A stretch of 64,000 bases of DNA, from NCBI RefSeq assembly GCF_002263515.1, contig NZ_CP022752.1:2852001-2916000 (forward strand), written 5' to 3'. Numbering within the stretch: the first letter of the stretch is position 1; each line of letters begins with the position of its first letter. Positions 11,004 to 31,615 of the stretch are shown one piece after another. The notes beneath the pieces are model-generated. The model ran no database searches. It was not told where the DNA came from and worked only from the letters and a program-made list of their open reading frames with translations. Source of the DNA: Actinopolyspora erythraea (GTDB lineage: Bacteria; Actinomycetota; Actinomycetes; Mycobacteriales; Pseudonocardiaceae). A program made the translations under genes and the position numbers.

Positions 11004-11825
11004 ATGTCGCACGACGCGGAGTTGGCCGCCCGAGTGGGGAACGTGAACTTCGACCAGCCCAACATCGCGCGGATGTACGACTACCACCTCGGCGGATCCG
11101 CGAACTTCGCCATCGACCGGGCCGTGGCCGAACAAGCGCTGCGGCTCGTGCCCACGGAGCGGGACTACTGCTGGGCCAACCGCGCGTTTCTGGGCCGTGC
11201 GGTGCGCACCCTCGTCACCGAACACGGGCTCGACCAGTTCCTCGACCTCGGCTCCGGTGTACCGACGGTGGGAAACGTGCACGAGATCGCCCACCAGTAC
11301 GATCCCCGCGCACGCGTGGCCTATGTGGACTGGGAACCCGTCGCCTGCCACCACGCCCGCCACCTGCTCGGCCCCGACGAGCACCGGGTGACGGTGACCG
11401 AGGCGGACGTGTGCGAGCCCGAGACCGTGCTCAACGCCGCCGGAGTGGCGGGGTTGTTGGACTTTTCTCGCCCGGTCGCGGTACTGGCGTTCGGAATCCT
11501 GGACATCCTGCCCACCACCGACGGGGCGGGGTTGGTCTCCCGCTACCGCGAGGCGTGCGCGTCGGGCAGTGTGCTGGCGCTGTCCAACAACGCCCAGCTC
11601 AGCCGCACCGACCAGGAGGTCGCGGCCCTGCGGTCCCTGCTGGCCGACACCTCCACGCCGAACCTGTACATGCGCGACAGCGAGGAAGTCGCCGCGCTGC
11701 TGCCCGGCTACACGCTGCTTCCCCCGGGAGTGGTGCCCGCGTCGTTGTGGCGGCCCGACCAGCCCGTCACCGAGCAGGAGGCCCGGCGCGGCAACGTCTA
11801 CGGCGCCGTCGGAATCCTGCCGTAG
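11004..11825 (+). CDS. S-adenosyl methyltransferase, DUF574 type
   Basis: A 273-residue member of the actinobacterial SAM methyltransferase family formerly called DUF574. It begins with the family signature NIARMYDYHLGGSANFAIDR, then the SAM-binding segment LDLGSGVPTVGNVHEIA and RVAYVDWEPVA. Physiological substrates are mostly unknown; such genes occur in many copies in actinomycetes. A paralogue lies at 24203-25015. The two share long stretches around the SAM site but differ at the N-terminus and in the substrate-side helices. It has no operon partner. Confidence 0.88.
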   Translation: MSHDAELAARVGNVNFDQPNIARMYDYHLGGSANFAIDRAVAEQALRLVPTERDYCWANRAFLGRAVRTLVTEHGLDQFLDLGSGVPTVGNVHEIAHQYDPRARVAYVDWEPVACHHARHLLGPDEHRVTVTEADVCEPETVLNAAGVAGLLDFSRPVAVLAFGILDILPTTDGAGLVSRYREACASGSVLALSNNAQLSRTDQEVAALRSLLADTSTPNLYMRDSEEVAALLPGYTLLPPGVVPASLWRPDQPVTEQEARRGNVYGAVGILP

Positions 11826-11947: not shown

Positions 11948-12565
11948 ATGAGACCCCGTGGGAGCGTGGCCCTGCTGCCGCTCGTCACGGCCGTAGCCCT
12001 GACCGGCTGTGCCGCACGCCCGGCGCACCCCGGCGAGGGGGCATCGTCGCCGTCCACGACCACGGCCCGGCCAACTCCGACGACTGCCTCAGCGGCCGCG
12101 GACTGCCCGGAGGCGGGGGTGCGTCTCACGACCGACTCGGTGGACGTGGCCATGGGTCTGCGGGTCATGCGAGTCGAGCTGACCAACTGCGGTGACCGGT
12201 CCTACGCGCTGAACGGCTATCCACGCGTGCGCGTGCTGGACGAGGACCGGAAACCGTTGGCCGTCCGGGCCGAGCGGGGTTCGGCGGACATCGCCACTGT
12301 CGACGGTTTCGACGCGCCCCCGGAGGCGATCACGCTGCGACCGGGAGAGCACGCCGAGACCCTGCTGATGTGGCGCAACACCAATGCCGGTGTGAACGCC
12401 CCGGCGGTCGGCGAGTACCTGCGGATCGCTCCGGCGCGGGGGCGGCCCTGCCAACCGGTGGTACCGGTAGGCCGGGAGCGGGGATCGCCCCGGCAGGACC
12501 GCGACGCGATCACCATGAACCTCGGAAGCACCGCGAAGCTCGGTGTCCGCGCCTGGTACCGCTAG
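11948..12565 (+). CDS. DUF4232 lipoprotein
   Basis: A 205-residue exported lipoprotein. The signal peptide ends in the lipobox ALTGC (Cys21), followed by a Ser/Thr/Pro linker (about 22-55) and a DUF4232 beta-sandwich containing CPEAGVRLTT...VELTNCGDRSYALNGYP. The two early Cys probably form a disulfide. The function of DUF4232 is unknown; it is common on actinobacterial cell surfaces. The ATG at 11948 has only a distant GGAGG. Its stop overlaps that of the convergent Rrf2 gene: the tetranucleotide CTAG at 12562-12565 supplies TAG to both strands. Confidence 0.85.
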   Translation: MRPRGSVALLPLVTAVALTGCAARPAHPGEGASSPSTTTARPTPTTASAAADCPEAGVRLTTDSVDVAMGLRVMRVELTNCGDRSYALNGYPRVRVLDEDRKPLAVRAERGSADIATVDGFDAPPEAITLRPGEHAETLLMWRNTNAGVNAPAVGEYLRIAPARGRPCQPVVPVGRERGSPRQDRDAITMNLGSTAKLGVRAWYR

Positions 12566-13053
12566 GACCGGTCGGACGAAGCGACCTCACGGAGTCCCGC
12601 GCTGTCCCCGCCCGGGTTCCCCTCCCGGTCGAGGCGCCGGAGCTCGCGGACCCCGTCGGCGAGCGTGCGATCGCCCAGCGCATCGAGCACGGCCCGTTCC
12701 GCCTCCCTGGTCAGCTCGGCGAAATAGGCCTGCGTGTTGGCGGCGACCCGGCAGTCGTGCTCGTCACCGGAGCGGCAGTTCCAGAGCGGCTTGTCTCCCG
12801 TCGAGCAGCGGTAGACCTCGGCGAGGGTGATCTCCTCCGGGGCCCGCGCCAGCCGGGTCCCGCCCGTGCGCCCCTTGGAGCAGACCACGAGCTCGGCCCG
12901 CGCCAGCGGGAGGACCAGCTTGCGCACCAGGCTCGCGTTGGTGCCCATCCGCTCGGCGAGCTGTGCGGAGCTCAGCGTCGGGTTTCCCTCCTCCTCGGCG
13001 ACGGCGAGGATCAGCATCGCCATGAGGGCGCTGGAGAAGCGGATGTCCAGCAC
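12562..13053 (-). CDS. Rrf2-family regulator with three spaced cysteines
   Basis: A 163-residue Rrf2 protein with an N-terminal winged helix (LDIRFSSALMAMLILA...SSAQLAERMGTNASLVRKLV). Cys83, Cys93 and Cys101 lie after the wing, in the area that holds the [Fe-S] or redox cysteines in IscR/NsrR-like members. I chose GTG 13053 because GGAGGGAGG is well placed and LDIRFSSAL is the usual N-terminus; ATG 13074 is possible. It is divergent from the Old Yellow Enzyme gene at 13200 and likely controls it through the AT-rich site between them. The signal could be nitrosative, electrophile or redox stress. Confidence 0.85.
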   Translation of the reverse strand: MLDIRFSSALMAMLILAVAEEEGNPTLSSAQLAERMGTNASLVRKLVLPLARAELVVCSKGRTGGTRLARAPEEITLAEVYRCSTGDKPLWNCRSGDEHDCRVAANTQAYFAELTREAERAVLDALGDRTLADGVRELRRLDREGNPGGDSAGLREVASSDRS

Positions 13054-13148
13054 GCCGGCAGCACCTCCCTCCATCGGCCGAACCGGTGGCTGCCACCTGG
13101 TGTTCTCCCAGGCTAGCAAGGCCGCCGAGGCCACCCGCACCCGAAAGT

Positions 13149-13165
13149 GTATTTTTAAAAAGAAC
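13149..13165. promoter_or_regulatory. AT-rich imperfect palindrome, probable Rrf2 operator
   Basis: GTATTTTTAAAAAGAAC is an imperfect inverted repeat in otherwise GC-rich DNA, placed between the divergent Rrf2 regulator and the Old Yellow Enzyme, 35 bases before the latter's ATG. AT-rich dyads of this kind are typical of Rrf2 sites. That this regulator binds it is inference. Confidence 0.5.
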
Positions 13166-13199
13166 ATTTTGTTTTCGCGTGCCCCAGGAGGACGTCCAC

Positions 13200-14321
13200 A
13201 TGTCCGCTCGCGCAGCGCAGGCGCTGTCCCGACCGCTCACCCTCGGCTCTGTGGAACTGCCGAACCGGCTGGTCATGGCCCCGATGACCCGTGCCAAGTC
13301 CCCCGGCGGGGTTCCCGACGAGAACGTCGCCGCCTACTACGCCCGGCGTGCCGCGGCCGGCACAGGTCTGATCATCACCGAGGGCACCTACGTCGACGAC
13401 CCCTCGGCCGGTGATCAGGAGAACGTGCCGCGCTTCCACGGTGAGCGGGCACTGGCGGGGTGGAGCGAGGTCGTCTCCGCCGTCCACGCACACGGCGGGA
13501 AGATCATGCCGCAGTTGTGGCACGTCGGTATCCAGCGACGGACGGGCAAACCGCCGGTCCCCGAGGCCCCCTCGGTCAGCCCTTCCGGCATCGCGCTGGA
13601 CGGGACCCCGGGGGCGGGTGAGGAACTCTCGCCGGCCGACGTCGAACGCCTCGTCGAGGCCTTCGCCGAAGCCGCGCGGCAGGCCGAGCGCGTCGGCTTC
13701 GACGGCGTGGAGCTCCACGGCGCGCACGGCTACCTGATCGACCAGTTCCTCTGGGAACGCACCAACCGGCGCACCGACGCCTACGGCGGTTCCCCGGTGG
13801 AACGCACCAGGTTCGCCGCCGACATCGTCGCGGCGGTGCGGGAGCGGGTCTCGGCCGACTTCCCCGTCGTGCTGCGGTTCTCGCAGTGGAAGGCCGACAA
13901 CTACGACGCCAAACTCGCCGAGACCCCGGACGAGCTGCGGGCGATGCTCGCCCCGCTGAGCGAGGCCGGAGTCGACGCCTTCCACGCCTCGGGGCGCCGC
14001 TACTGGGAACCCGAGTTCCCCGAGTCCGACCCCGACCTCAACATCGGCGGCTGGACCCGCAAGCTCACCGGCAAGCCGGTCATCACCGTCGGCTCGGTCG
14101 GACTGGACGCGGTGTTCGACCCCGCCACCCTCGGCGACGGCGCGGGCACCAACGTGGCCAGCGTCGAAGGGCTCGCCGAACGCCTGGAGCGGGAGGAGTT
14201 CGACCTCGTCGCCGTCGGCCGCGCGCTACTGGCCGACCCGGAGTGGAGCCGGAAGGTGCTGGACGGCCGCGAGGGCGAGCTCGTGCCGTTCACCCGCGAG
14301 GCGATCGCCACGCTGTACTGA
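13200..14321 (+). CDS. Old Yellow Enzyme-family flavin oxidoreductase
   Basis: A 373-residue FMN-dependent alkene reductase of the NemA/OYE class. It starts LTLGSVELPNRLVMAPMTRAK and has IMPQLWHVG near 100 for flavin and substrate contacts, GVELHGAHGYLIDQFL as the beta-barrel core, and a C-terminal GRALLADPEW loop. These enzymes reduce activated C=C bonds, nitro compounds or nitrate esters with NAD(P)H, often in electrophile defence. AGGAGG lies 8 bases before ATG 13200. Divergence from an Rrf2 sensor suggests inducible expression. A second, distinct family member is at 38392-39459. Confidence 0.92.
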   Translation: MSARAAQALSRPLTLGSVELPNRLVMAPMTRAKSPGGVPDENVAAYYARRAAAGTGLIITEGTYVDDPSAGDQENVPRFHGERALAGWSEVVSAVHAHGGKIMPQLWHVGIQRRTGKPPVPEAPSVSPSGIALDGTPGAGEELSPADVERLVEAFAEAARQAERVGFDGVELHGAHGYLIDQFLWERTNRRTDAYGGSPVERTRFAADIVAAVRERVSADFPVVLRFSQWKADNYDAKLAETPDELRAMLAPLSEAGVDAFHASGRRYWEPEFPESDPDLNIGGWTRKLTGKPVITVGSVGLDAVFDPATLGDGAGTNVASVEGLAERLEREEFDLVAVGRALLADPEWSRKVLDGREGELVPFTREAIATLY

Positions 14322-14540: not shown

Positions 14541-15602
14541 TTACCCCGCTCCGCCGAGTGGCGTCGTCTCCCGTTCCCACTCACCGCGAGCTCCGGGCGG
14601 GGCGCACGCGCGGTCCCAGCGCATGCGCGACCACGGCATCGTGAGCTCCGTGGTGCTGACCACCGGACGCGGTGCGAGCTCGGCGATGTCCTCGGCCGCC
14701 TCGGCACGGGAGAACACCGCTTCGTTGTAGCGGTGCCCCGTGTCGGCCGCGATGAACAGCACCGGGCCGGACGCCCCCTCGTACCGCTCCCAGCGCGCGG
14801 CCAGGTACGCGGCACCACTGGACAGCCCCGCGAACACGGCGTGCCTGCGGAGCAGGTCCGTGCTCCCCGAGAGCGCGGTGCTGAAGGAGATCCAGTGCAA
14901 CGTGTCGTAGGCGGTGTGATCGACGTTGCCGAACGGGATGGAGCTGCCGATCCCGGCGATGATCATTTCGTTGTCGGAGACGTGGTCGCTGCCGAAGGTG
15001 ACGCTGCCGAACGGCTGAACCCCGACCAGGGTGACATCCGTGTCGGCGCCGCGCAGGTACTTCGCCAGCGCTCCCGTGGAAGCGCCGGACCCGACGCCGC
15101 CGACGACGGTGAGCGAGTCGCTGTCCAGTTCGGCGCGGATGCGATCCGCGATCGTGCGATACCCGAGGTAGTGAATGTCGTCGTGGTACTGCCGCATCCA
15201 GTGGTAGTCAGGATTCTCGTGCAACAGCTGTCGCACCCGACGCACCCGCAGGCTCTGGTCGAGCTTGAGGTCCGCCGACGGTTCGACCCGCTCCAGACGG
15301 CACCCCAGCAGGACGAGTTGGTTGTGCAGGGCGGAGTCGATCGTCGTCGAACCCACGATGTGGCAACCGAGGCCGTATCTGTGGCAGGCCACCGCGAGCG
15401 CGTACGCGTAGATGCCGCTGGAGCTGTCCAGCAGGGTGTCGCCGGGACGCACCCTTCCCCGTTCGAGTAATCGCTCGACCGCGGCCAGGGCGGACACGAC
15501 CTTCATCGTCTCAAACCGAAGGCATACGAGCCCCCTTTCGAGGCGGATCAGGTCGGGGCGTGCGATCGCGTCCGCGATGTGTTCGTCCATGATCACCATC
15601 AC
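14541..15602 (-). CDS. PLP fold-type II enzyme (cysteine synthase/SbnA-like)
   Basis: A 353-residue enzyme. The Schiff-base lysine is probably Lys34 (RFETMKVVSAL), and the phosphate-binding glycine loop is GGVGSGASTG at 168-177. The substrate loop, usually SGNTG or SGNxG, reads SSSGIYAYAL (60-69), so the conserved Asn is replaced by Ile and the substrate is unlikely to be that of CysK. Relatives include SbnA, which makes a diaminopropionate precursor from O-phosphoserine for staphyloferrin B. Together with the upstream kinase, a beta-replacement on a phospho-amino acid is a reasonable inference. Its 5' end overlaps the kinase gene by 92 bases; the conserved N-terminus requires this overlap. 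It is the last gene of the operon. Confidence 0.85.
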   Translation of the reverse strand: MMVIMDEHIADAIARPDLIRLERGLVCLRFETMKVVSALAAVERLLERGRVRPGDTLLDSSSGIYAYALAVACHRYGLGCHIVGSTTIDSALHNQLVLLGCRLERVEPSADLKLDQSLRVRRVRQLLHENPDYHWMRQYHDDIHYLGYRTIADRIRAELDSDSLTVVGGVGSGASTGALAKYLRGADTDVTLVGVQPFGSVTFGSDHVSDNEMIIAGIGSSIPFGNVDHTAYDTLHWISFSTALSGSTDLLRRHAVFAGLSSGAAYLAARWERYEGASGPVLFIAADTGHRYNEAVFSRAEAAEDIAELAPRPVVSTTELTMPWSRMRWDRACAPPGARGEWERETTPLGGAG

Positions 15603-16548
15603 CGTTCCGGGAACGAGGGCGAGTGCTGAACACTCGTGTGCTGGGAATGTCGTTGCGGGCCAGTTCGAGGAGGCATGCCCGTATCCGGGCCCCCGCTCCG
15701 GGGGAGGCCGGGTCGAAGATCAGTCCGGCGACATTGCCGCTGTGCGCGACCTGCAGGCCGACCGCTCCGACCCGCTCGGCGATGTCCAGGAGCGAGTCCA
15801 GCTGGGTCTTGTCGAGGACGCGCTGGTTGTTCCGGGCGCTCTCGGTGCTGACCCGCCCGAGCAGGGCGGTGTCCGAACGAGCCACGGCTCGCCGCAGCAG
15901 TGCGCGCAGCCGTTCGCCTGTCCGCACGTCCGCCTCTCGGACGGGGTGGGCACCCAGTTCCAGGGTGTCGACGCCGGTCGCACCTTCGGTGAGGCATCCC
16001 ACCACCAGCGCCGGGGGAAGCCGGGCACCGAGTTCTTCGAGGACTCTGCCCTGCCGTTGCGCGAACAGCAGGGGGCGGTCGCCGAACATCAGCGGGTCGC
16101 AGGCGTGTTCGGCCGACACGGCGATTCCCGACACGGTCTCCGCGGACAGGTGCGTACCGTAGGCGTCCACCACGGCGCGAATGGCGGCCAGGACGTCGGC
16201 GCTCGACGACCCCATCCCGAGGCCGTCGGGAATCTCGCTGCTCAGGGACAGTCGTCCGCCGCACGGTGCCCGAGCCGTGATGTTCCCGCAGAGTTCGCAG
16301 GTCAGGGTAGCCGCCCGTCGCGCCTTGTCCCGGCCGTTCGGAGTGGTGGTGATGGCGTCGGGAGAGGTACCCGGCTCGGGTACGAAGACGGCCCTGCTGC
16401 GGGGACCGGGCAGGGGCAGCGTGACCAGGCCGCGGCAACCACGCCCCCGTTCGTCGAGGAAGGCTCCCTGCAGGATCTCGCCGTGATGGCAGCTGGACCG
16501 GCCCGTCCCGGTCCTCGGTGGAGCTTTCCGGGCGGTGAGTGCGTTCAT
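15511..16548 (-). CDS. PduX-like GHMP kinase
   Basis: A 345-residue GHMP-superfamily kinase. SCHHGEILQGAF (19-30) resembles the PduX/L-threonine kinase N-terminus, and GLGMGSSSAD (109-118) is the ATP-binding motif 2. PduX phosphorylates L-threonine for cobamide synthesis, but no cobamide genes are near. Here the kinase sits between a metal-chelation protein and a PLP enzyme that would need an activated amino acid, so O-phospho-L-serine or -threonine for metallophore assembly is the better guess. The start overlaps the previous stop (ATGA). The C-terminal 30 residues, within the overlap, are basic and of low complexity. Confidence 0.85.
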   Translation of the reverse strand: MNALTARKAPPRTGTGRSSCHHGEILQGAFLDERGRGCRGLVTLPLPGPRSRAVFVPEPGTSPDAITTTPNGRDKARRAATLTCELCGNITARAPCGGRLSLSSEIPDGLGMGSSSADVLAAIRAVVDAYGTHLSAETVSGIAVSAEHACDPLMFGDRPLLFAQRQGRVLEELGARLPPALVVGCLTEGATGVDTLELGAHPVREADVRTGERLRALLRRAVARSDTALLGRVSTESARNNQRVLDKTQLDSLLDIAERVGAVGLQVAHSGNVAGLIFDPASPGAGARIRACLLELARNDIPSTRVFSTRPRSRNGDGDHGRTHRGRDRTPRPDPPRKGARMPSV

Positions 16549-17363
16549 GAGGAGTGACCGGCGCGGTAGCGGTACAGGGTGGTCGGTCCCGAGTCGAACT
16601 GGGAGAACGGGAAGGGCTCGGCGGACAGCGCGGTGACGCCGGAGCCGAGGAAGGCCCGCGCGACGGCCGCCCCCGACTGGGCGTAGAGGGTCAGCGGCAC
16701 GCCCCGCTGCCCGCAGTGCCGCAGTATCCCCTCGAAGGTCCCGTTGCCCAGCGTCATACCGGTGGCCACGACGGCGTCGGCGGGTTCGAGCACTTCGTTC
16801 ATGACCGAGGTGACCAGCCCACCGTCCACGGTGGTGTCGAGGTTGTAGTCACAGGGCAGGCAGACGCAACCCCGCTCGTGCAGGGCCGTCACGAGCGGGG
16901 AGACGACGCCGATGAGCGCCACCTTGGTTCCCGGGGCGGCGTCGAGAAGTCCCGTGATCGCTTCGTCCCTGGCCCGGGCACGCTGCTCGGGAGTGCCCGC
17001 CGGTAGTGCGACGGCTTCCGCGTCGGCTCGGTCCTGGTGGTGCTCGACCTCGGTGAGGTAGGCGTCGAGCGCGGCGACGCGCAGCGCGAGCGGTGCGTCG
17101 CGCATCAGGACGTCGAGTCGGCTGCCCGACGCCTCCGAGCAGATGTTCGCAGTGAGTTCACCCGCTTCGAAGGCGCAGGCGCCGTAGGAGTGTCCGACTC
17201 GGACGAGGACGTACCGGTTGAGGGATGTGGTGTTCGATCCTGCCAGCCGGGTGCCGTGCTGGAGCCAGAACACACTGGTGGCGACCAGTTCACTCGGATG
17301 TGGCCCCCTGGAGCCACCGAGCGTCTCGGCGAAGAGGGCGTCGAGCGTCGCTGTTTCGGTCAT
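16545..17363 (-). CDS. DUF4213/DUF364 putative heavy-metal chelation protein
   Basis: A 272-residue protein of the DUF4213/DUF364 type, which Pfam describes as putative heavy-metal chelation on structural grounds: an enolase-N-like domain (about 1-100) followed by a Rossmann-like domain (APGTKVALIGVVSPLVTAL...PADAVVATGMTLGNGTFEGIL). CVCLPCDYN carries a Cys pair that could bind metal. Family members often neighbour FecCD-type importers. It follows the binding-protein gene by 46 bases and overlaps the kinase by four. It could process the metal-ligand complex after uptake or contribute to ligand synthesis; nothing in the sequence settles this. Confidence 0.8.
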   Translation of the reverse strand: MTETATLDALFAETLGGSRGPHPSELVATSVFWLQHGTRLAGSNTTSLNRYVLVRVGHSYGACAFEAGELTANICSEASGSRLDVLMRDAPLALRVAALDAYLTEVEHHQDRADAEAVALPAGTPEQRARARDEAITGLLDAAPGTKVALIGVVSPLVTALHERGCVCLPCDYNLDTTVDGGLVTSVMNEVLEPADAVVATGMTLGNGTFEGILRHCGQRGVPLTLYAQSGAAVARAFLGSGVTALSAEPFPFSQFDSGPTTLYRYRAGHSS

Positions 17364-17409
17364 GCTGCTGCCTTTCCGGAGCTGTTGGCCGGGAGAGCGG
17401 GATCGTGGG

Positions 17410-18399
17410 CTAGCGCCCGATGGAACGCAGGTAGTCCGCGAACTTCTCGGCGGCGGCGATGTTGCGGGGACCGCTTACGGCGGCTCCGTAGTCGATGACG
17501 TGGAACCGGTTGTTCCGGACGGCCGGGGTTCGTGCCAGCGGGGGGAACGACTTCAGGAACTCGATCTTGTCCTCGACGGGTTTGTCCCCGTAGTCGACGA
17601 CGGTGATGACTTCCGGATCGGCCCGCACGACGGATTCCCACCCGATCGTGGTCCAGCGCTTGTCGAGGTCGTGCAGGATGTTGCGACCGCCCGCCAGGGA
17701 GACGATGGAGTCGGGGGCCGCTTGAGCACCGGATGTGAACGGTTTGTCGGTTCCGGAGTCGTAGATGAAGACCCGGGGTGGCGTGCCTTCCGGTTGTCGC
17801 TCGCGAAGATCCCGGGCACGTCGCTTCAGATCCGCGACCACCCGTTGCGCGCGCTCCTCGACGCGGAAGATCTTCCCGATCTGGCGCAGATCGGTGTAGA
17901 GCGCTTCCAGCGGTGGGACGCGCACGGGGTCGGATCCGTAGTTGAAGCAGCTCTCGGTGTGCTGGTAGCTGCGTATGCCCAGGGAGTCGAGCTTGCTCGG
18001 GGTGATCCCCCGGGACTGGCTGAAACCGGACTCCCAACCGGCCAGGACCCAGTCCGCTTTCGCGTCGAGGACGACCTCGAGGCTGAGCACGTCGGTGCTC
18101 AGCGTTTCGACGGAACGGTAGTCCTCCCGCCACGGGGAGCGCTTCACCGACGGGTCGGCGGTGCTGGGCATGACGATGCCCCGCATGCGATCGGCCAGTC
18201 CGAGGGCGAACATCTTCTCGGTGCTGCTCATGTCGTAGGCGACCGGGCGCCGCGGTTCGGGGTATTCGATCGTCCGCCCGCAGTTGTCGATGGTGACCGT
18301 GCCGGACTCCCCGTTCGAGGCGGGCGTGATGTCTGCTCCGCAGGCGGTGGCGAGTAACGAGCTGGTCAGCAGTATCGGGACGGCCAGGCGTGATGCCAT
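17410..18399 (-). CDS. Metal-chelate ABC transporter binding lipoprotein
   Basis: A 329-residue FecB/BtuF-fold solute-binding lipoprotein. The signal ends in the lipobox LATAC (about residue 20), and the two lobes are joined by a long helix (LEALYTDLRQIGKIFRVEERAQRVVADL). Siderophore, haem and cobalamin binding proteins share this fold, so the ligand is a metal chelate of unknown type. The His-rich loop typical of free-zinc ZnuA proteins is absent, which argues that the ligand is a complex and not a bare ion. It is third in the operon after permease and ATPase. Confidence 0.88.
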   Translation of the reverse strand: MASRLAVPILLTSSLLATACGADITPASNGESGTVTIDNCGRTIEYPEPRRPVAYDMSSTEKMFALGLADRMRGIVMPSTADPSVKRSPWREDYRSVETLSTDVLSLEVVLDAKADWVLAGWESGFSQSRGITPSKLDSLGIRSYQHTESCFNYGSDPVRVPPLEALYTDLRQIGKIFRVEERAQRVVADLKRRARDLRERQPEGTPPRVFIYDSGTDKPFTSGAQAAPDSIVSLAGGRNILHDLDKRWTTIGWESVVRADPEVITVVDYGDKPVEDKIEFLKSFPPLARTPAVRNNRFHVIDYGAAVSGPRNIAAAEKFADYLRSIGR

Positions 18400-18430
18400 C
18401 GCGGGTACTCCTCCTTGTTCACAGTGGTGG

Positions 18431-19192
18431 TCAGATGTCGTAGTGCAGCTGGGGGACGCCGGTGCGCGGGTGGTGAACGATCGAGGGGGTCACGCCGAAC
18501 GCCTCGTTGACCACCTCGGGGGTGAGGACTTCGGCGGGTGGACCCAGGTACAGCACTGTTCCGCGGGCGAGCACGGCCAGCCGGTCGCACGTGGCCGCCG
18601 CGAGGTTGAGGTCGTGCATGGCGATCAGCACGGTGAGCGACTCCGCGCGCAGCTGCCGGAGCAGCTGGAGCTGGTGGTGTATGTCGAGGTGGTTGGTCGG
18701 TTCGTCGAGGACCAGAACACGGGGTTGCTGCGCGAAGGCCCGGGCGAGCACCACTCGCTGTCGCTCGCCACCGGACAACGACAGCACTCCGCGATCGGCC
18801 AGGTGGACGACGTCGGCACGCCGCATCGCCTCGTCGCGGACGGCGCGCTCCTCGGCGGTCAGTGGCTGGTTCCCACGGTGGTGCGGAAAACGGCCGAGCT
18901 CGACGACTTCGGCGACGGTGAAGTCGAGGTCGTTGCCGCTTTCCTGCGGGACGGCGGCGATGGATCGCGCGGACGCACGCGGGTCGAGGGTGGCGAGGTC
19001 GGTGCCGTCGAGCAGCACGGCTCCCCTGCTCGGTCGCAGCGCCCCGTAGACGCACCGCAGGGCGGTGGACTTGCCGCTTCCGTTGGGCCCCACGAACCCG
19101 AGCACTTCCCCTTCCTCCGTTTTGACGTTCAGGTCGTGGACGAGCTCGGCCCCGGCGAGACGCACGGACACGGCATCGAAAGTGATCGACAT
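18431..19192 (-). CDS. ABC transporter ATPase, FecE/FepC type
   Basis: A 253-residue ATPase with Walker A GPNGSGKST, signature LSGGERQRV, Walker B VLVLDEPTNHLD and the switch His in IAMHDLN. It belongs to the class that powers metal-chelate import through FecCD permeases. Its ATG directly abuts the permease stop (permease ends at 19193, this gene starts at 19192), so the two are translationally coupled. Confidence 0.93.
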   Translation of the reverse strand: MSITFDAVSVRLAGAELVHDLNVKTEEGEVLGFVGPNGSGKSTALRCVYGALRPSRGAVLLDGTDLATLDPRASARSIAAVPQESGNDLDFTVAEVVELGRFPHHRGNQPLTAEERAVRDEAMRRADVVHLADRGVLSLSGGERQRVVLARAFAQQPRVLVLDEPTNHLDIHHQLQLLRQLRAESLTVLIAMHDLNLAAATCDRLAVLARGTVLYLGPPAEVLTPEVVNEAFGVTPSIVHHPRTGVPQLHYDI

Positions 19193-20269
19193 TCACCGAC
19201 CTCCGAACAGGTAGCCACGACGTCGCAGCAGCGTGATGAACACCGGAACTCCGATCAGAGCGGTGATCACGCCGAGGGGAAGCTCACGGGGTGCGAACAA
19301 CGTCCGCGAGGCGAGATCGACCCAGACGAGGAAGATCGCGCCGATCAGCGGGGCGAGGGTCAGAACCCGGCGATGGTTCGCACCGACCAGCAGGCGCACG
19401 AGGTGCGGGATGACGAGACCGACGAAGCCGACCGCGCCGCTGACCGCGACCAGGCAGCCGGTCACGATCGCCGTGAGCAGGAAGAGTTTCTTGCGCACGG
19501 CGGGGGCGTCCATGCCCAGGCCCGCAGCGGTTTCGTCACCGAGCGCCAGCACGTCGAGGGCACGGCAGTTCCGCAGGAGCAGCACCGTGGCGAGAGCGAC
19601 CGTGGCCGCGGCCAGCGGGAGACTGGACCACGTGGCGCTGCCCAGGCTGCCCATCAACCAGAACAGGACCGTGCGGGCAGAGTCGCTGAAGGGGGCGAAG
19701 AACACGATCGCGCTCATCAACGCCTGGAATCCGTAGGCGAGGGCGACGCCCGTGAGCACGAGACGAAGCGGAGTAAGCCCGGACTTGCCGCGTGCGGCGA
19801 GGTAGACGAGTGCCGAGGCCCCCAGCGCCCCCAGCAGCGCGGCAGTGGACAGCGCGTACACCCCGAGTCCGGCGAACAGCCCGAAGGAGACCACGGCGCT
19901 GGCACCGACCGAGGCCCCGGACGAGACACCGAGGATGAAGGGGTCGGCGAGCGCGTTGCGAACAGTGGCCTGTATCGCCACGCCGACGACGCTGAGTCCC
20001 GCCCCCACCACCGCCGCGAGCAGCACTCGGGGGGTGCGTACCTGCCAGGTGATCGCGTACCCGCTGGCGTCCCCCGCGTCGACGCTCCCACCGGTGATCG
20101 CCGCCACCAGGTAGCGCACGGTCTCGGGCAGCGGCACGGGGGTGGGGCCGAGAGCGATGCCGATCAGGATCGACCCCGCCAGAACCGCCACCAGCGGCAG
20201 AACCGCCGTGATCAGGCCTCTCTCCCTTCGGCGCACCGGGAGGGCCGACTGTGTCTCCGATGTGGTCAC
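19193..20269 (-). CDS. FecCD-family metal-chelate permease
   Basis: A 358-residue, roughly ten-helix permease of the BtuC/FecCD family. The characteristic segments RTPRVLLAAVVGAGLSVVG, NALADPFILGVSSGAS and GFVGLVIPHLVRLLVG are all present, and the last is the coupling region. It is probably a homodimer, since no second permease gene exists. It starts at GTG 20269 and is the first gene of a six-gene operon. The Zur/Fur-like box at 20354-20372 lies about 85 bases upstream, so import is presumably repressed when metal is plentiful. Confidence 0.93.
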   Translation of the reverse strand: MTTSETQSALPVRRRERGLITAVLPLVAVLAGSILIGIALGPTPVPLPETVRYLVAAITGGSVDAGDASGYAITWQVRTPRVLLAAVVGAGLSVVGVAIQATVRNALADPFILGVSSGASVGASAVVSFGLFAGLGVYALSTAALLGALGASALVYLAARGKSGLTPLRLVLTGVALAYGFQALMSAIVFFAPFSDSARTVLFWLMGSLGSATWSSLPLAAATVALATVLLLRNCRALDVLALGDETAAGLGMDAPAVRKKLFLLTAIVTGCLVAVSGAVGFVGLVIPHLVRLLVGANHRRVLTLAPLIGAIFLVWVDLASRTLFAPRELPLGVITALIGVPVFITLLRRRGYLFGGR

Positions 20270-20353
20270 TGTTCGCGCTCCGTGTTCGAAGCTCCGCGGG
20301 GACGGGTGAAGGGGGTCGAGGACGGATGCCGCGGTCGCTTACGATGCATCGTA

Positions 20354-20372
20354 GAAAACGATAATCATTTTC
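20354..20372. promoter_or_regulatory. Fur-family (probably Zur) box in the divergent promoter
   Basis: GAAAACGATAATCATTTTC is a 19-base palindrome with one mismatched pair, in an AT-rich patch between the importer operon (start 20269) and the MFS gene (start 20510). Actinobacterial iron control normally uses IdeR/DtxR boxes of the TTAGGTTAGGCTAA type, which this is not. Zur boxes of the TGAAAATGATTTTCA type are much closer. Outer arms CGTAGA and TCTACG extend the dyad loosely. I call it Zur by resemblance only. Confidence 0.65.
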
Positions 20373-20509
20373 GTCTACGGTTGATGTTCATTGGGAGAAC
20401 CGTCACAGCGACGACACGTCGCGCGACCCTCGGTGGTATCCGAAGTGACCGGTCAGATGCGTTCTCCAGTGCGGCGCCGCCGTGGACACGTGTGACGGGA
20501 GCAGATCCA

Positions 20510-21826
20510 GTGACATCCGCGCCTACCGGACCAGAGGAAACCCCGCCGCGAAGGTCGCTGTTCCTCGAGCCGAGCTTCCTGCGGTTCTGGGCCGGAACGA
20601 CCGCTTCCGGGCTCGCCACGTGGGCGCTGCCCTTCGTGCTCGGTCTGGCCGTGCTCGACCGCACCATCGGCGCCGCGGCGCTCGGGGTACTGCTCGCGAC
20701 CCGCACAGCGGGTTTCCTGCTCGCCGTCCCCCTCGGCGGGGTGCTGGCCGACCGCTACTCCAGCCGAAGGGTCGTGACGCTGTCGGGGATCACCGCCGCC
20801 GTGGCCACCGCGGTCCTCACGATCGGCTCGGGTGCTTCGCAACCGTTGATGGCAGTGGCTTCGGCCGCGGTCGGAGCCGGACAGGGAGCTTGCAGACCAG
20901 CGTTCCAAGCCCTGACCGCCGAGGTCGTGGACCCGGCCCGACGGCAGCGGGCCAACGCGGCGCGCACCCTGTCGGTGCGGGTGACCACACTGGTCGCGCC
21001 CGGTTTGACGGCGCTGGCGGCCACCACCGTCGACACCAACACGCTGTTGCTGGTCACGGGTGGGCTCTGGCTGGTGGCGGCCTGGCTTCCACCGGCGGGG
21101 CGGAAGAACACCGGCGTCCCCTCGCGCGATGGCGGCGTGCCGTTCGTCTCCGAGTTCACCGAGGGCATGCGCGAGGCGCGCAGGCACCCCTGGTTCCTGG
21201 CCGGTCTGGCCGCGTTGGCCACCGTCATCACCACCGGCTATTCCGCCACCGGGGTCCTCCTACCGCTGATCAGCCGCGATCGCTACGACACCGAAGCGGT
21301 CCTGGCGGCCGCGCTGACCGCTTACACGACGGGAGCGCTGCTCGGGGCGCTGCTCGTCGCGCGGTGGCGGCCCCGCTCGCAGGGTTTCTGGGCACTGGCC
21401 GGGCTGGCCGGTTACGGCTTCGCCCCGCTCGGGTTGCTGCTACCGCTCCCGGCCGCGCTGCTGGTGGCGGGGTACGTGCTGGCTGGGGTCGGGATCGAGT
21501 TGTTCAACGTCCCGTGGTTCACCGCGACCCAGCGCGAGGTCGCTCCGGACAAACTGGCGCGCGTGTCCGCCCTGGACTTCCTGGTCTCCTACGGACTGGC
21601 ACCGCTGGGACTGGCGCTGATCGCGCCCGCCGTGACGCTCGTCGGGAACTTCTGGGTGCTGGTGGTGTGCGCGGCGGCGTGCTTCGCGGCACCCGCCTTG
21701 GCCGCCCTGGCCCCCGGCGCACGCCACTTCACCCGGCCCGCGAGGGCCGCGGAGGCGGCGGAGCGAGCGCCGGCCGCCCAAGAGGTGAGCTCGGCGAGGA
21801 GCCGGCCCGAGGGCACCGGGGAGTAG
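20510..21826 (+). CDS. MFS exporter divergent from the metal-uptake operon
   Basis: A 438-residue twelve-helix transporter of the MFS_3/EntS-like group. It begins FLEPSFLRFWAGTTASGLATWALPFVLGL and has the loop 2-3 motif GGVLADRYSSRRV. Family members export siderophores, macrolides and other small molecules. I chose GTG 20510, with GGGAG about 9 bases upstream; GTG 20492 is in frame. The intergenic region with the metal-responsive box is shared with the uptake operon, so secretion of the chelator made by the kinase and PLP enzyme is the likely role, by inference. Confidence 0.85.
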   Translation: MTSAPTGPEETPPRRSLFLEPSFLRFWAGTTASGLATWALPFVLGLAVLDRTIGAAALGVLLATRTAGFLLAVPLGGVLADRYSSRRVVTLSGITAAVATAVLTIGSGASQPLMAVASAAVGAGQGACRPAFQALTAEVVDPARRQRANAARTLSVRVTTLVAPGLTALAATTVDTNTLLLVTGGLWLVAAWLPPAGRKNTGVPSRDGGVPFVSEFTEGMREARRHPWFLAGLAALATVITTGYSATGVLLPLISRDRYDTEAVLAAALTAYTTGALLGALLVARWRPRSQGFWALAGLAGYGFAPLGLLLPLPAALLVAGYVLAGVGIELFNVPWFTATQREVAPDKLARVSALDFLVSYGLAPLGLALIAPAVTLVGNFWVLVVCAAACFAAPALAALAPGARHFTRPARAAEAAERAPAAQEVSSARSRPEGTGE

Positions 21827-24202: not shown

Positions 24203-25015
24203 TTGGAGACGGGAACCGGACAGCAACCACCGCGGGTGGACGAGCGGACGCCCAACATCGCGCGGATGTACGACTACTTCCTCGGCGGATCGGCGCACTT
24301 TCACACCGACCGTGTCGCCGCCGAGGAGTTCCTGCGGGTCTACCCGGGCAACACGCTGTGGGCCCAGCACAACCGCTCGTTCCTCGGCCGGGCGGTACGC
24401 GAGCTGTGCGAACTGGGCATCGACCAGTTCCTCGACCTGGGCTCGGGCATCCCGACCGTGGGCAACGTGCACGAGATCGCCCACCGGAAGAACCCCGGCG
24501 CCAGGGTGGCCTACGTCGACATCGAACCGGTCGCGGTCAGCCACGCCGAGCACATGCTGCGCGACACCGAGCTGGCGACCATCACCCGAGCAGACATACG
24601 CCTTCCCGAGCAGGTGCTGAACGCTCCCGGCGTCGCGGGACTGCTGGACTTCACCCGCCCCGTGGCGGTGCTGGCCGTGGCGATCCTGGACATCATCTCG
24701 GTCCGGGACCCGCGCGGGATGCTGGCCACCTACCGCGAGGCGTGCGCGCCCGGCAGCGCGCTTGTCATCACCAACGGCGCGCAGCTGACCATGACCGACG
24801 CCGAACGAGCGGGCATCGACCAGGTCATGTCGGGTACCACCACCCCGCACGTGACGTTCCGCGATCCCGAGGAGATCCGGGAGCTGTTCGCGGGATACAC
24901 CCTGCTGGAACCCGGTGTCGTCCCCAGCGCCGCCTGGCGACCCGCCGAGCCCGTCACCGACGAGGCCGCCCGGCACTCCAACGGCTACGCAGCCGTGGGG
25001 ATCCGTTCGAACTGA
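24203..25015 (+). CDS. S-adenosyl methyltransferase, DUF574 type
   Basis: A 270-residue paralogue of the gene at 11004, with NIARMYDYFLGGSAHFHTDR, LDLGSGIPTVGNVHEIA and VAYVDIEPVAVSHAEHML. The start is TTG 24203, supported by AGAAGGGAG about 7 bases upstream; no ATG or GTG with a ribosome site fits the conserved N-terminus as well. The substrate is unknown. It lies downstream of another methyltransferase gene by about 170 bases and may be co-transcribed. Confidence 0.87.
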   Translation: METGTGQQPPRVDERTPNIARMYDYFLGGSAHFHTDRVAAEEFLRVYPGNTLWAQHNRSFLGRAVRELCELGIDQFLDLGSGIPTVGNVHEIAHRKNPGARVAYVDIEPVAVSHAEHMLRDTELATITRADIRLPEQVLNAPGVAGLLDFTRPVAVLAVAILDIISVRDPRGMLATYREACAPGSALVITNGAQLTMTDAERAGIDQVMSGTTTPHVTFRDPEEIRELFAGYTLLEPGVVPSAAWRPAEPVTDEAARHSNGYAAVGIRSN

Positions 25016-29382: not shown

Positions 29383-30852
29383 TCAGCTCTTCCCCGGTTC
29401 GGCCGCCTCGTACGTGGCCTCGCGGGCGAACAGGAGACCCACGATCAGGCCCAACCCGAGCAGGACTGCTGCACAGACACCGAGAGCCCGGTGCAGACCG
29501 GTGAGCAGCAGCGCCGTCTGCTCCGGGCTGAGCTCCCGCCCGGTCCCGCTCGTGCCGGGTAGGCCCGCGTAGACGAGCGCGCCGAGCACCGCGACACCGA
29601 AGACCTGACCGATCTGTCTGGAGGCGTTGACCACGGCCGAAGCCTGACCTGCGCGGGCGGGACCGACCGCGGACATCGCCAGCGTCGTGATCGGTGTGCC
29701 GCACAGCCCGATACCGGCACCGAGCACAGCGAAGGTGATCAGGATCGTGGCCACTCCGGTCGCCGGGCCCAAGCCGAGCAGCACGAGCGTGGCCAGCCCG
29801 CTGAGCACCAGCCCGGCCACCAGTGGAAGGCGCTCTCCACTCCTTCCGACGAGCCGACCGGTCCAGGTGGCCGTCAGCGCGTAGGTCACGCCGATCACCG
29901 CGATGCACACCCCGGTTCCGAGCGCGGAGTACCCCCGAACCTGCTGGAAGTAGGTGCTGAAGTAGACCACGGCACCGACGAAGGCGAAGAACACCACGAA
30001 CGCGGCCGCGTTCGCGACGGCGAAGCCCCGGCGGGCGAACAGGGAGACGTCGATGAGCGGTTCGGCGCGGCGACGCGCGATCACCACGAACGCGACCAGC
30101 GAAACCGCTCCCAGAGCGAACGCACCGAGCGTCCGCGAGCTCCACCAACCGGTCGCCTGCCCTTCGATCACCGCGACGGCGGGGAAGGCGACCCCGGCCG
30201 CCGAGAGCACCACACCGGCCAGGTCCAGGCCCGCCTCGGCGCGCCCCGGCAGCGCGGGCAACAGCCGGAACCCGCCCAACAACAGCCCCAGGACCAGCGG
30301 CACGTTAACGGCGAACACCCAGCGCCACCCCAGGCCCGCCACCAGCAGCCCGCCCAGCGGCGGCCCGGTGGCCAGTGCCAGACCGGAGCTGGTCGACCAC
30401 CAGCCGATCGCGGTCGCCCGCTGCCTCGGGTGCTCGAACAGCGCCCGGATGATCGCCAACCCGCCGGGCACCATCAGCGCCGCGCCCAGACCCTGCACGA
30501 CCCGCCCGGCCAGCAGGGCCGGAAGCACCGGCGCCAGCGCCGCGCCCAGGGACCCCGCGCCGAACAGCGCGCACCCGAGCAGGAACAGCCGCTTGCGCCC
30601 GTAGCGGTCGCCGAGCGCACCACCGGCGACGAGCAGGCCCGCGTAAACGACCACGTAGGCATCGACGACCCACTGCAGTCCGGCTGCCGAAGCGTGCAGT
30701 TCGTACCCGATGGTGGGCAGGGCGACGCTGACCACCGTCGTCGAGACCACGGCCACGAACAGCCCTCCGGTCACGACGAACAGCGCGAACCACGCCGAGC
30801 GCGGCGCTCGTGGCGGATCGGCCGGGGCGGCTCCGGTTTCCAGGGTGCTCAT
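29383..30852 (-). CDS. DHA2-family MFS drug transporter
   Basis: A 489-residue exporter with about fourteen membrane helices (QacA/EmrB type). It has the motif A region GGALGDRYGRKRLFLLG after helix 2 and motif C GLALATGPPLGGLLV in helix 5. It starts at ATG 30852, ten bases after the stop of the PEP-mutase-family gene, so the two are co-transcribed. At the downstream end of the long naphthoquinone-type run it could export the product, but it may equally be a separate two-gene unit, because a 120-base gap with its own palindrome precedes its partner. Confidence 0.9.
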   Translation of the reverse strand: MSTLETGAAPADPPRAPRSAWFALFVVTGGLFVAVVSTTVVSVALPTIGYELHASAAGLQWVVDAYVVVYAGLLVAGGALGDRYGRKRLFLLGCALFGAGSLGAALAPVLPALLAGRVVQGLGAALMVPGGLAIIRALFEHPRQRATAIGWWSTSSGLALATGPPLGGLLVAGLGWRWVFAVNVPLVLGLLLGGFRLLPALPGRAEAGLDLAGVVLSAAGVAFPAVAVIEGQATGWWSSRTLGAFALGAVSLVAFVVIARRRAEPLIDVSLFARRGFAVANAAAFVVFFAFVGAVVYFSTYFQQVRGYSALGTGVCIAVIGVTYALTATWTGRLVGRSGERLPLVAGLVLSGLATLVLLGLGPATGVATILITFAVLGAGIGLCGTPITTLAMSAVGPARAGQASAVVNASRQIGQVFGVAVLGALVYAGLPGTSGTGRELSPEQTALLLTGLHRALGVCAAVLLGLGLIVGLLFAREATYEAAEPGKS

Positions 30853-30862
30853 TCGTCCGGCC

Positions 30863-31615
30863 TCACCGGTCGCGATCGGCGACGAGCTGCTGCTTGAACC
30901 ACTTCTCGAAGCTCCACCAGTGCCGTGGACCGAACGAGATTCGGGCGACACCGAGGTCGGTGAGCTCTCGGATCGTCGGGCTCCGCGGCAGGGCGGAGAC
31001 GTTGACGGGGCCGTCGATGCGTTCCACCAGTCTGCCGATGGTGGCCGTCTCGGTCGCGTGGATCGGGTAGACGCAGTCGGCACCCGCTGCCAGGTAGCGG
31101 TTGGCCCTGTCGACCACCTCGGGCAGCGGTTCCTTCTCGACACCGGTGCGCCCTGCCAGGAACGCGTGCAGGAAGCCGTCGACCCGGGCGTTGAGCACCG
31201 GTGGGTCCTCGTGGCGGTCCAGCTCGGAGCGGAGCGCGGCGAGGTAGCGTCCGTACTCCTCGGCGGGGACGAGTTCGCCGGTGCGGTGGTCTGTCTCCTC
31301 GACGTTGAACCCGGCCGCTCCCATCGCCACGAGCCGGCGCACCAGCTCCTCGGGGGCGAAGCCGTAGCCGGCTTCCGCGTCGACGGTGACCGGCGCGTCC
31401 ACCGCTGCCACGATCCGGGCGGCGACCGAGAGCATGAGCTCCGCGGGCGCACCCTCGTGGTCGTCGTGTCCGGCGGCTTCGGCGATCGCCCAGCTGGTGG
31501 TGCCGACGGTGGTGAAACCGGCCTCGTTCGCCCAGCGCGCGGTGGCCGCGTCCCAGACGTTGGCCACCACGACGGGAGCTCCCGGTTGGTGCAGCTTCAG
31601 GAATTCCCGGCTCAC
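30863..31615 (-). CDS. Isocitrate lyase/PEP mutase-family enzyme
   Basis: A 250-residue TIM-barrel protein. VVVANVWDAATARW opens the barrel, VDAEAGYG holds the metal-binding acidic residues and AAGFNVEETDH follows. The EDKxxxxx gating loop of true PEP mutase and the KKCGH motif of isocitrate lyase are both absent, so it is more like oxaloacetate decarboxylase or 2,3-dimethylmalate-lyase relatives of unknown substrate. I chose GTG 31615 on GGAAGGGAG; the frame extends upstream without support. It is coupled to the MFS gene that follows. Confidence 0.82.
   Translation of the reverse strand: MSREFLKLHQPGAPVVVANVWDAATARWANEAGFTTVGTTSWAIAEAAGHDDHEGAPAELMLSVAARIVAAVDAPVTVDAEAGYGFAPEELVRRLVAMGAAGFNVEETDHRTGELVPAEEYGRYLAALRSELDRHEDPPVLNARVDGFLHAFLAGRTGVEKEPLPEVVDRANRYLAAGADCVYPIHATETATIGRLVERIDGPVNVSALPRSPTIRELTDLGVARISFGPRHWWSFEKWFKQQLVADRDR

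Follow-up and report, generated by a model that had tools for sequence, protein, structure and literature searches.

Organization of the Locus

The stretch studied here (the window) comprises 64,000 nucleotides of Actinopolyspora erythraea (NZ_CP022752.1, positions 2,852,001 to 2,916,000), whose genome is a single contig of 5.24 Mb and lies near that of Actinopolyspora xinjiangensis (locus L034, protein identity 92–97%). At 14541–21826 it carries seven genes that we read as a putative zinc-regulated metallophore system. Six of them are tightly packed on the minus strand and encode a FecCD-type importer permease (19193..20269; Pfam FecCD, 289 bits), the importer ATPase (18431..19192; ABC_tran, 114 bits), a substrate-binding lipoprotein (17410..18399; Peripla_BP_2, 79 bits), a DUF364 protein (16545..17363), a PduX-like GHMP kinase proposed to act on an amino acid (15511..16548; GHMP_kinases_N, 47 bits vs. 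a cut-off of 22; GHMP motif IPDGLGMGSSSAD), and a fold-type II pyridoxal phosphate (PLP) enzyme, the proposed beta-replacement synthase (14541..15602; PALP, 110 bits). Divergent from this operon, on the plus strand, is a predicted exporter of the major facilitator superfamily (MFS; 20510..21826; MFS_1, 112 bits). The intervening region holds a single Fur-type box, the Zur-like sequence GAAAACGATAATCATTTTC (20354..20372, strand unassigned), which is common to both promoters. No other Fur-type box in the window exceeded 14/19, and the sole 14/19 match overlaps this one.

The permease and ATPase genes abut (0 bp), gaps of 31 and 46 bp separate ATPase from lipoprotein and lipoprotein from DUF364, and DUF364 and kinase overlap by 4 bp. 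The kinase and PLP genes overlap by 80 or 92 bp, according to the PLP start chosen. Across the related loci and the window, overlap was kept at 55 of 60 DUF364–kinase junctions and 55 of 57 kinase–PLP junctions. The seven genes lie where a preliminary description had placed them, and its families, spacings, and single Fur-type box were all found again; its label DUF4213/DUF364 has to be shortened, as Pfam matches DUF364 only. Its statement that genes for nonribosomal peptide synthetases (NRPS) and NRPS-independent siderophore (NIS) synthetases are missing also holds by Pfam within the seven-gene block. A simple scan of 20200–20600 found no sigma-70 promoter. No Rfam family reached threshold in the window, which thus contains no cobalamin riboswitch.

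Conservation and Variants of the Block

Contigs representing one genome per species were scanned with the DUF364 protein, giving 250 relatives, and the best 80, largely from Streptomyces and Pseudonocardiales, were kept as named loci. The PLP gene was present in 76 of these 80, the FecCD permease in 71, the kinase in 62, and the window-type MFS gene in 61; MFS genes of a second family occurred in 14. A further gene, c7, occurred in 36; it has no Pfam match and is called a methyltransferase because of weak HemK-type matches and an NPP-type motif. Sixty-nine loci extend more than 4.5 kb beyond DUF364 in both directions; of these, PLP was found in 68, any MFS gene in 67, an importer (FecCD or SBP5/Opp/Nik-type) in 65, the kinase in 54, and c7 in 32. 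The only one of the 69 without a called PLP gene (L104) gave a partial PLP match by tblastn. The kinase, presented earlier as a pathway member, is thus part of most clusters (54/69) but missing from some, and the constant pair is DUF364 and PLP. Within the order, 51 of 397 genomes contained a kinase relative (E 0.001). A close kinase occurred in 25 of 199 Streptomyces genomes, the genus of L045, at E 1e-60 (21 at ≥58% identity; the query's own genome is included in the 25).

Four arrangements were distinguished. Variant A, the window type, consists of MFS, FecCD importer, optional c7, DUF364, kinase, and PLP. In variant B, c7, PLP, a PhyH dioxygenase, DUF364, and the second MFS gene occur and the window-type kinase is absent; three such loci (L070, L071, and L105) have a kinase of 34–36% identity, divergent from PLP. 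In L077, L103, and L107 of this variant, an SBP5/Opp-Nik-type ABC system takes the place of FecCD beside the DUF364 and PLP pair. Variant C has DUF364, PLP, and FecCD genes and no kinase (L089, L101, and L106). Variant D, on actinomycete plasmids (L139, 6561–15870; L140, 6631–16735), combines ATP-grasp, DUF364, a cysteine-synthase-like PLP gene, dipeptide epimerase, MFS, methyltransferase, and an ABC importer. Grouped with these two, a Tsukamurella locus (L137) combines importer, DUF364, MFS, and PLP genes with one for a GHMP-like protein whose annotation is hypothetical. When 16 genomes were probed (15 chosen for having no window-type kinase beside the cluster and one positive control), 6 had no match to this kinase anywhere, and these drafts may be incomplete.

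Beyond the block's own clusters (c0–c10), no gene family clustered at ≥38% identity, a setting at which a split family could escape notice, occurred in more than 5 of the 80 loci; no cobamide gene family therefore accompanies the block. A cobamide/PduX reading was rejected on this result and on the lack of a riboswitch in the window. What co-occurs, as the preliminary description had proposed to check, is a block of exporter, enzymes, and importer under a Zur-like box.

These data bear on the idea that the locus takes up and processes a compound synthesized by other organisms (a chelate, cofactor, or vitamin), with the enzymes modifying or degrading the import and the MFS protein clearing waste. 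The best NCBIfam scores of the importer, both below cut-off, come from F420-0 transporter models (permease TIGR03869, 285 bits vs. 437; lipoprotein TIGR03868, 176 bits vs. 392), and DUF364 proteins are described as accompanying ABC metal transporters in prokaryotes without such a kinase or PLP gene (PMC2954201). However, no cobamide or F420 gene family is conserved in the loci, and a kinase and PLP enzyme together with DUF364, an exporter, and optional ATP-grasp, epimerase, and methyltransferase look like synthesis. We regard mere uptake and processing as improbable.

A Zur-Like Box Shared with znuA

With up to three mismatches, the 19-mer occurred at three places in the genome, and its reversed control at none. 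One is the operon described here and another lies 45 bp upstream of znuA, so that the promoter box is common with that of the genome's own znuA. The third (G000:C1:2405506-2405524; L117 5507) is near a hydrolase-like open reading frame (ORF). Upstream of the MFS gene, the 19-mer reached ≥14/19 in 54 of 61 regions (49/56 when Actinopolyspora is left out), against 16 of 625 regions elsewhere that share no block promoter, and a core upstream box at this level was present in 63 of 76 loci. The motif tGaNNatSatNNtCa, derived from 172 chromatin immunoprecipitation sites of Streptomyces coelicolor (PMC5472717), matched 10/11 upstream of a second znuA (L126). Ahead of block genes it reached ≥9/11 in 116 of 181 regions, versus 33 of 624 other upstream regions. 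Because related loci are not independent, all these counts are descriptive. On plasmid locus L139, a box of 18/19 precedes the ATP-grasp gene. In three loci (L077, L094, and L113) the exporter is directly followed by a gene of the Fur family whose product is 41–43% identical to the Zur-like protein of the window genome; the latter is 34 and 29% identical to the two other Fur-family proteins of its genome.

The metal itself could be another one. A metallophore of the same build might serve iron, nickel, or cobalt, and another member of the Fur family might recognize the box. Three genes of that family are present in the genome, FecCD importers are able to transport a wide range of chelates, and some relatives have the Opp/Nik-type importer. 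We consider this unlikely, considering that the box is common with znuA and that iron boxes are weak. With the IdeR/DmdR-type iron box consensus, the best match across 62 MFS promoters was 13/19 and 54 promoters scored ≤10, in a scan run without background. Iron control was rejected on that scan. By comparison, the box resembles a Zur site and the operon is probably zinc-controlled; zinc is now the favored metal, since the box is shared with the znuA promoter.

In S. coelicolor, SCO0475 is reported as Zur-regulated, and a ZurR site begins in the ATG of SCO0476 (PMC4726154, PMC10320115). The box at the permease start of L045 has the same geometry, a likeness that we take as no more than a lead. 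S. coelicolor did not appear among the 120 best kinase relatives listed for L045 and may therefore lack the kinase.

The Enzymes

The Schiff-base lysine of the PLP enzyme was assigned by alignment as K34 and is invariant in alignments A1 and A5. At the level of fold and family, the seven-gene block contains a PLP beta-replacement synthase type without NRPS or NIS. PLP enzymes linked to a kinase have Tyr at residue 67 in 75 of 77 cases, and the other PLP enzymes have His there in 14 of 15. These 15 form one clade (support 91 in a quick tree, the careful search being unfinished), so the change counts as one event and is no proof of different substrates; covariation of kinase and PLP at this residue was rejected as such a sign.

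The GHMP fold and motif support the kinase assignment made earlier, and the label PduX-like stems from the names given by some sources to its relatives (“uncharacterized protein involved in propanediol utilization”). A sequence search for solved structures related to the kinase returned nothing useful. Clusters without any kinase suggest that O-phosphoserine of primary metabolism can serve there; where present, the kinase may supply extra O-phosphoserine, or O-phosphothreonine.

Membership of the third protein in DUF364 (PF04016) is supported by score (42.4 vs. 23 bits) and by fold. A sequence search for solved relatives gave nothing useful, and the closest solved folds to its AlphaFold2 model (mean confidence, pLDDT, 89.3) are the DUF364 structures of Dhaf4260 (3l5o) and PH1506 (3npg). 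Both have the same two-domain fold, only 14–16% identity to the window protein, and likewise no assigned function. From genome context, the structure paper suggested that such proteins condense or hydrolyze the side chains of chelators (PMC2954201). The DUF364 protein is probably an enzyme. Its constant pairing with PLP favors a biosynthetic role, and metal release after uptake would also be compatible.

Proposed Function

We consider it rather probable that the locus is a zinc-regulated metallophore system, whose product would arise by beta-replacement on a phospho-amino acid, be exported, and be re-imported as a metal complex. According to this proposal, which draws on comparisons of gene order, conservation, box, families, and modeled folds, zinc-bound Zur would occupy the intervening box and repress both promoters, and zinc shortage would release both. 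The kinase substrate would be a hydroxy amino acid, either serine or threonine. The PLP enzyme would eliminate the phosphate and add an amine nucleophile, possibly aspartate or another amino acid, so that a small aminocarboxylate chelator with a secondary amine results. DUF364 might complete the chelator or act on it once it has been taken up. Export of the chelator would fall to the MFS protein, and the lipoprotein, FecCD permease, and ATPase would return the metal complex, zinc being the presumed cargo. Such chemistry has precedents in SbnA and in aspergillomarasmine A (AMA) synthase; the latter is reported to add O-phosphoserine to aspartate, yielding a zinc chelator (PMC8319579). A metallophore had already been suggested in the preliminary description; its families stand and are joined by a conserved block and a Zur-like box, while the chemistry and the metal carried are what we infer.

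Several observations weigh against this proposal. The box consensus was drawn from the window itself, which is why the published S. coelicolor motif was also applied, and the place near the hydrolase-like ORF means that a box by itself is no proof of zinc uptake. Thirteen of the 76 loci have no core upstream match ≥14, and six of them are kinase-less type clusters; L077, L094, and L113, with their own Zur-like gene, are all among the 13, and two of them belong to the six. No box was found at L140. The PLP enzyme scores 134.6 bits against the SbnA equivalog model TIGR03945, whose cut-off is 349.95, and its best solved-fold match, SbnA (5d87), is only narrowly ahead of cystathionine beta-synthase. 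The earlier SbnA-type assignment is thus kept insofar as SbnA comes first by both sequence model and fold, and weakened by the score and the small fold margin. In addition, the structure model has a pLDDT of 78 with a weak stretch at 201–227, and the asparagine loop, SSGIYA, is unusual and unlike the TSGNTG of O-acetylserine sulfhydrylase. Finally, serine, threonine, and homoserine are all candidate substrates of the kinase.

A broader reading, which we hold tentatively and place slightly below an even chance, is that DUF364 and PLP form the core of an unrecognized, modular, Zur-controlled metallophore family of actinomycetes. The PLP enzyme would build an aminocarboxylate from a phospho-amino acid and DUF364 would be biosynthetic; accessory enzymes (kinase, methyltransferase, dioxygenase, ATP-grasp, and epimerase) would diversify the product, with FecCD or Opp/Nik-type importers swapped to match.

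If the zinc-regulated metallophore proposal is true, about a tenth of the sampled Streptomyces genomes would contain a metal-scavenging pathway without known product, and DUF364, annotated for years as “putative heavy-metal chelation,” would acquire a biochemical function that can be tested. A simple gene signature would also allow new zinc chelators of the AMA and [S,S]-ethylenediaminedisuccinate (EDDS) type, studied as metallo-beta-lactamase inhibitors (PMC8319579), to be mined.

As to the surroundings, two S-adenosyl methyltransferase (PF04672) genes lie a few kb on either side of the operon (11004–11825 and 24236–25015). An Oxidored_FMN gene divergent from an Rrf2-type regulator stands just past the operon end (12562–14321), and a phosphoenolpyruvate phosphomutase-family gene adjoins an MFS gene at 29383–31615.

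Comparison with Known Systems

As a Zur-controlled metallophore system, the locus would be of a general type already known, and we found no description of its gene set in the open-access literature searched. A PduX-like kinase gene also adjoins an SbnA-like PLP gene in L025–L033, which resemble the 2,3-diaminobutyrate modules found in antibiotic clusters of the friulimicin/pacidamycin type. In contrast to the window, these loci gave no DUF364 match within the stretches examined, and their PLP enzymes are 29–33% identical to that of the window; several show a lyase-like fragment (L028, Lyase_1 19.6 bits, below cut-off). The SbnA/SbnB route to staphyloferrin B shares an SbnA-related PLP enzyme with the block but differs in its SbnB dehydrogenase and NIS synthetase: the block has no NIS synthetase, Pfam and NCBIfam found no SbnB-like dehydrogenase, in agreement with the preliminary description, and the PLP score of 134.6 bits is far from the cut-off of 350.

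The [S,S]-EDDS zincophore of Amycolatopsis japonicum resembles the proposed system in its Zur control, PLP enzyme, and non-NRPS/non-NIS route, and EDDS is described as a Zur-controlled aminopolycarboxylate of an actinomycete (PMC6103462, PMC4993170). The window might therefore encode the published aes pathway or a direct orthologue. A first set of EDDS candidate loci turned out to be unrelated clusters. In eight genomes from one genus of the same family, Zur-like boxes were found near TIGR03945-like genes at 12 places in 6 genomes. L189, L191, and L192 contain an OCD gene, a decarboxylase, an SbnA-like PLP gene, and a MATE transporter (by Pfam in L189, by eye in L191 and L192), the set expected for an ethylenediamine chelator, from which we infer that they are EDDS-like; L192 additionally holds an SBP5 system. 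At L190 (7765–19756), which also has Zur-like boxes, an MFS gene 62% identical to the window exporter is followed by decarboxylase, OCD, aminotransferase, and SbnA-like PLP genes, with two ABC proteins, a methyltransferase-like gene, and a binding lipoprotein.

No window-type kinase or DUF364 match appeared at E 1e-4 in these four regions. The candidate EDDS-type loci thus differ from the block in their OCD, decarboxylase, and MATE genes and in having neither kinase nor DUF364, and their PLP enzymes are 26–28% identical to that of the window. Identity with EDDS synthesis, already denied in the preliminary description, is in our view very improbable on this comparison, which covers the inferred EDDS-like loci found here.

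The AMA synthase of fungi is a fold-type II PLP-type synthase. No kinase, DUF364 protein, or importer is known to belong to that system, and its likeness to the proposed pathway lies in enzyme type and reaction. As in the route proposed here, the synthase joins O-phosphoserine to an amino acid, and an aminopolycarboxylate zinc chelator is formed (PMC8319579).

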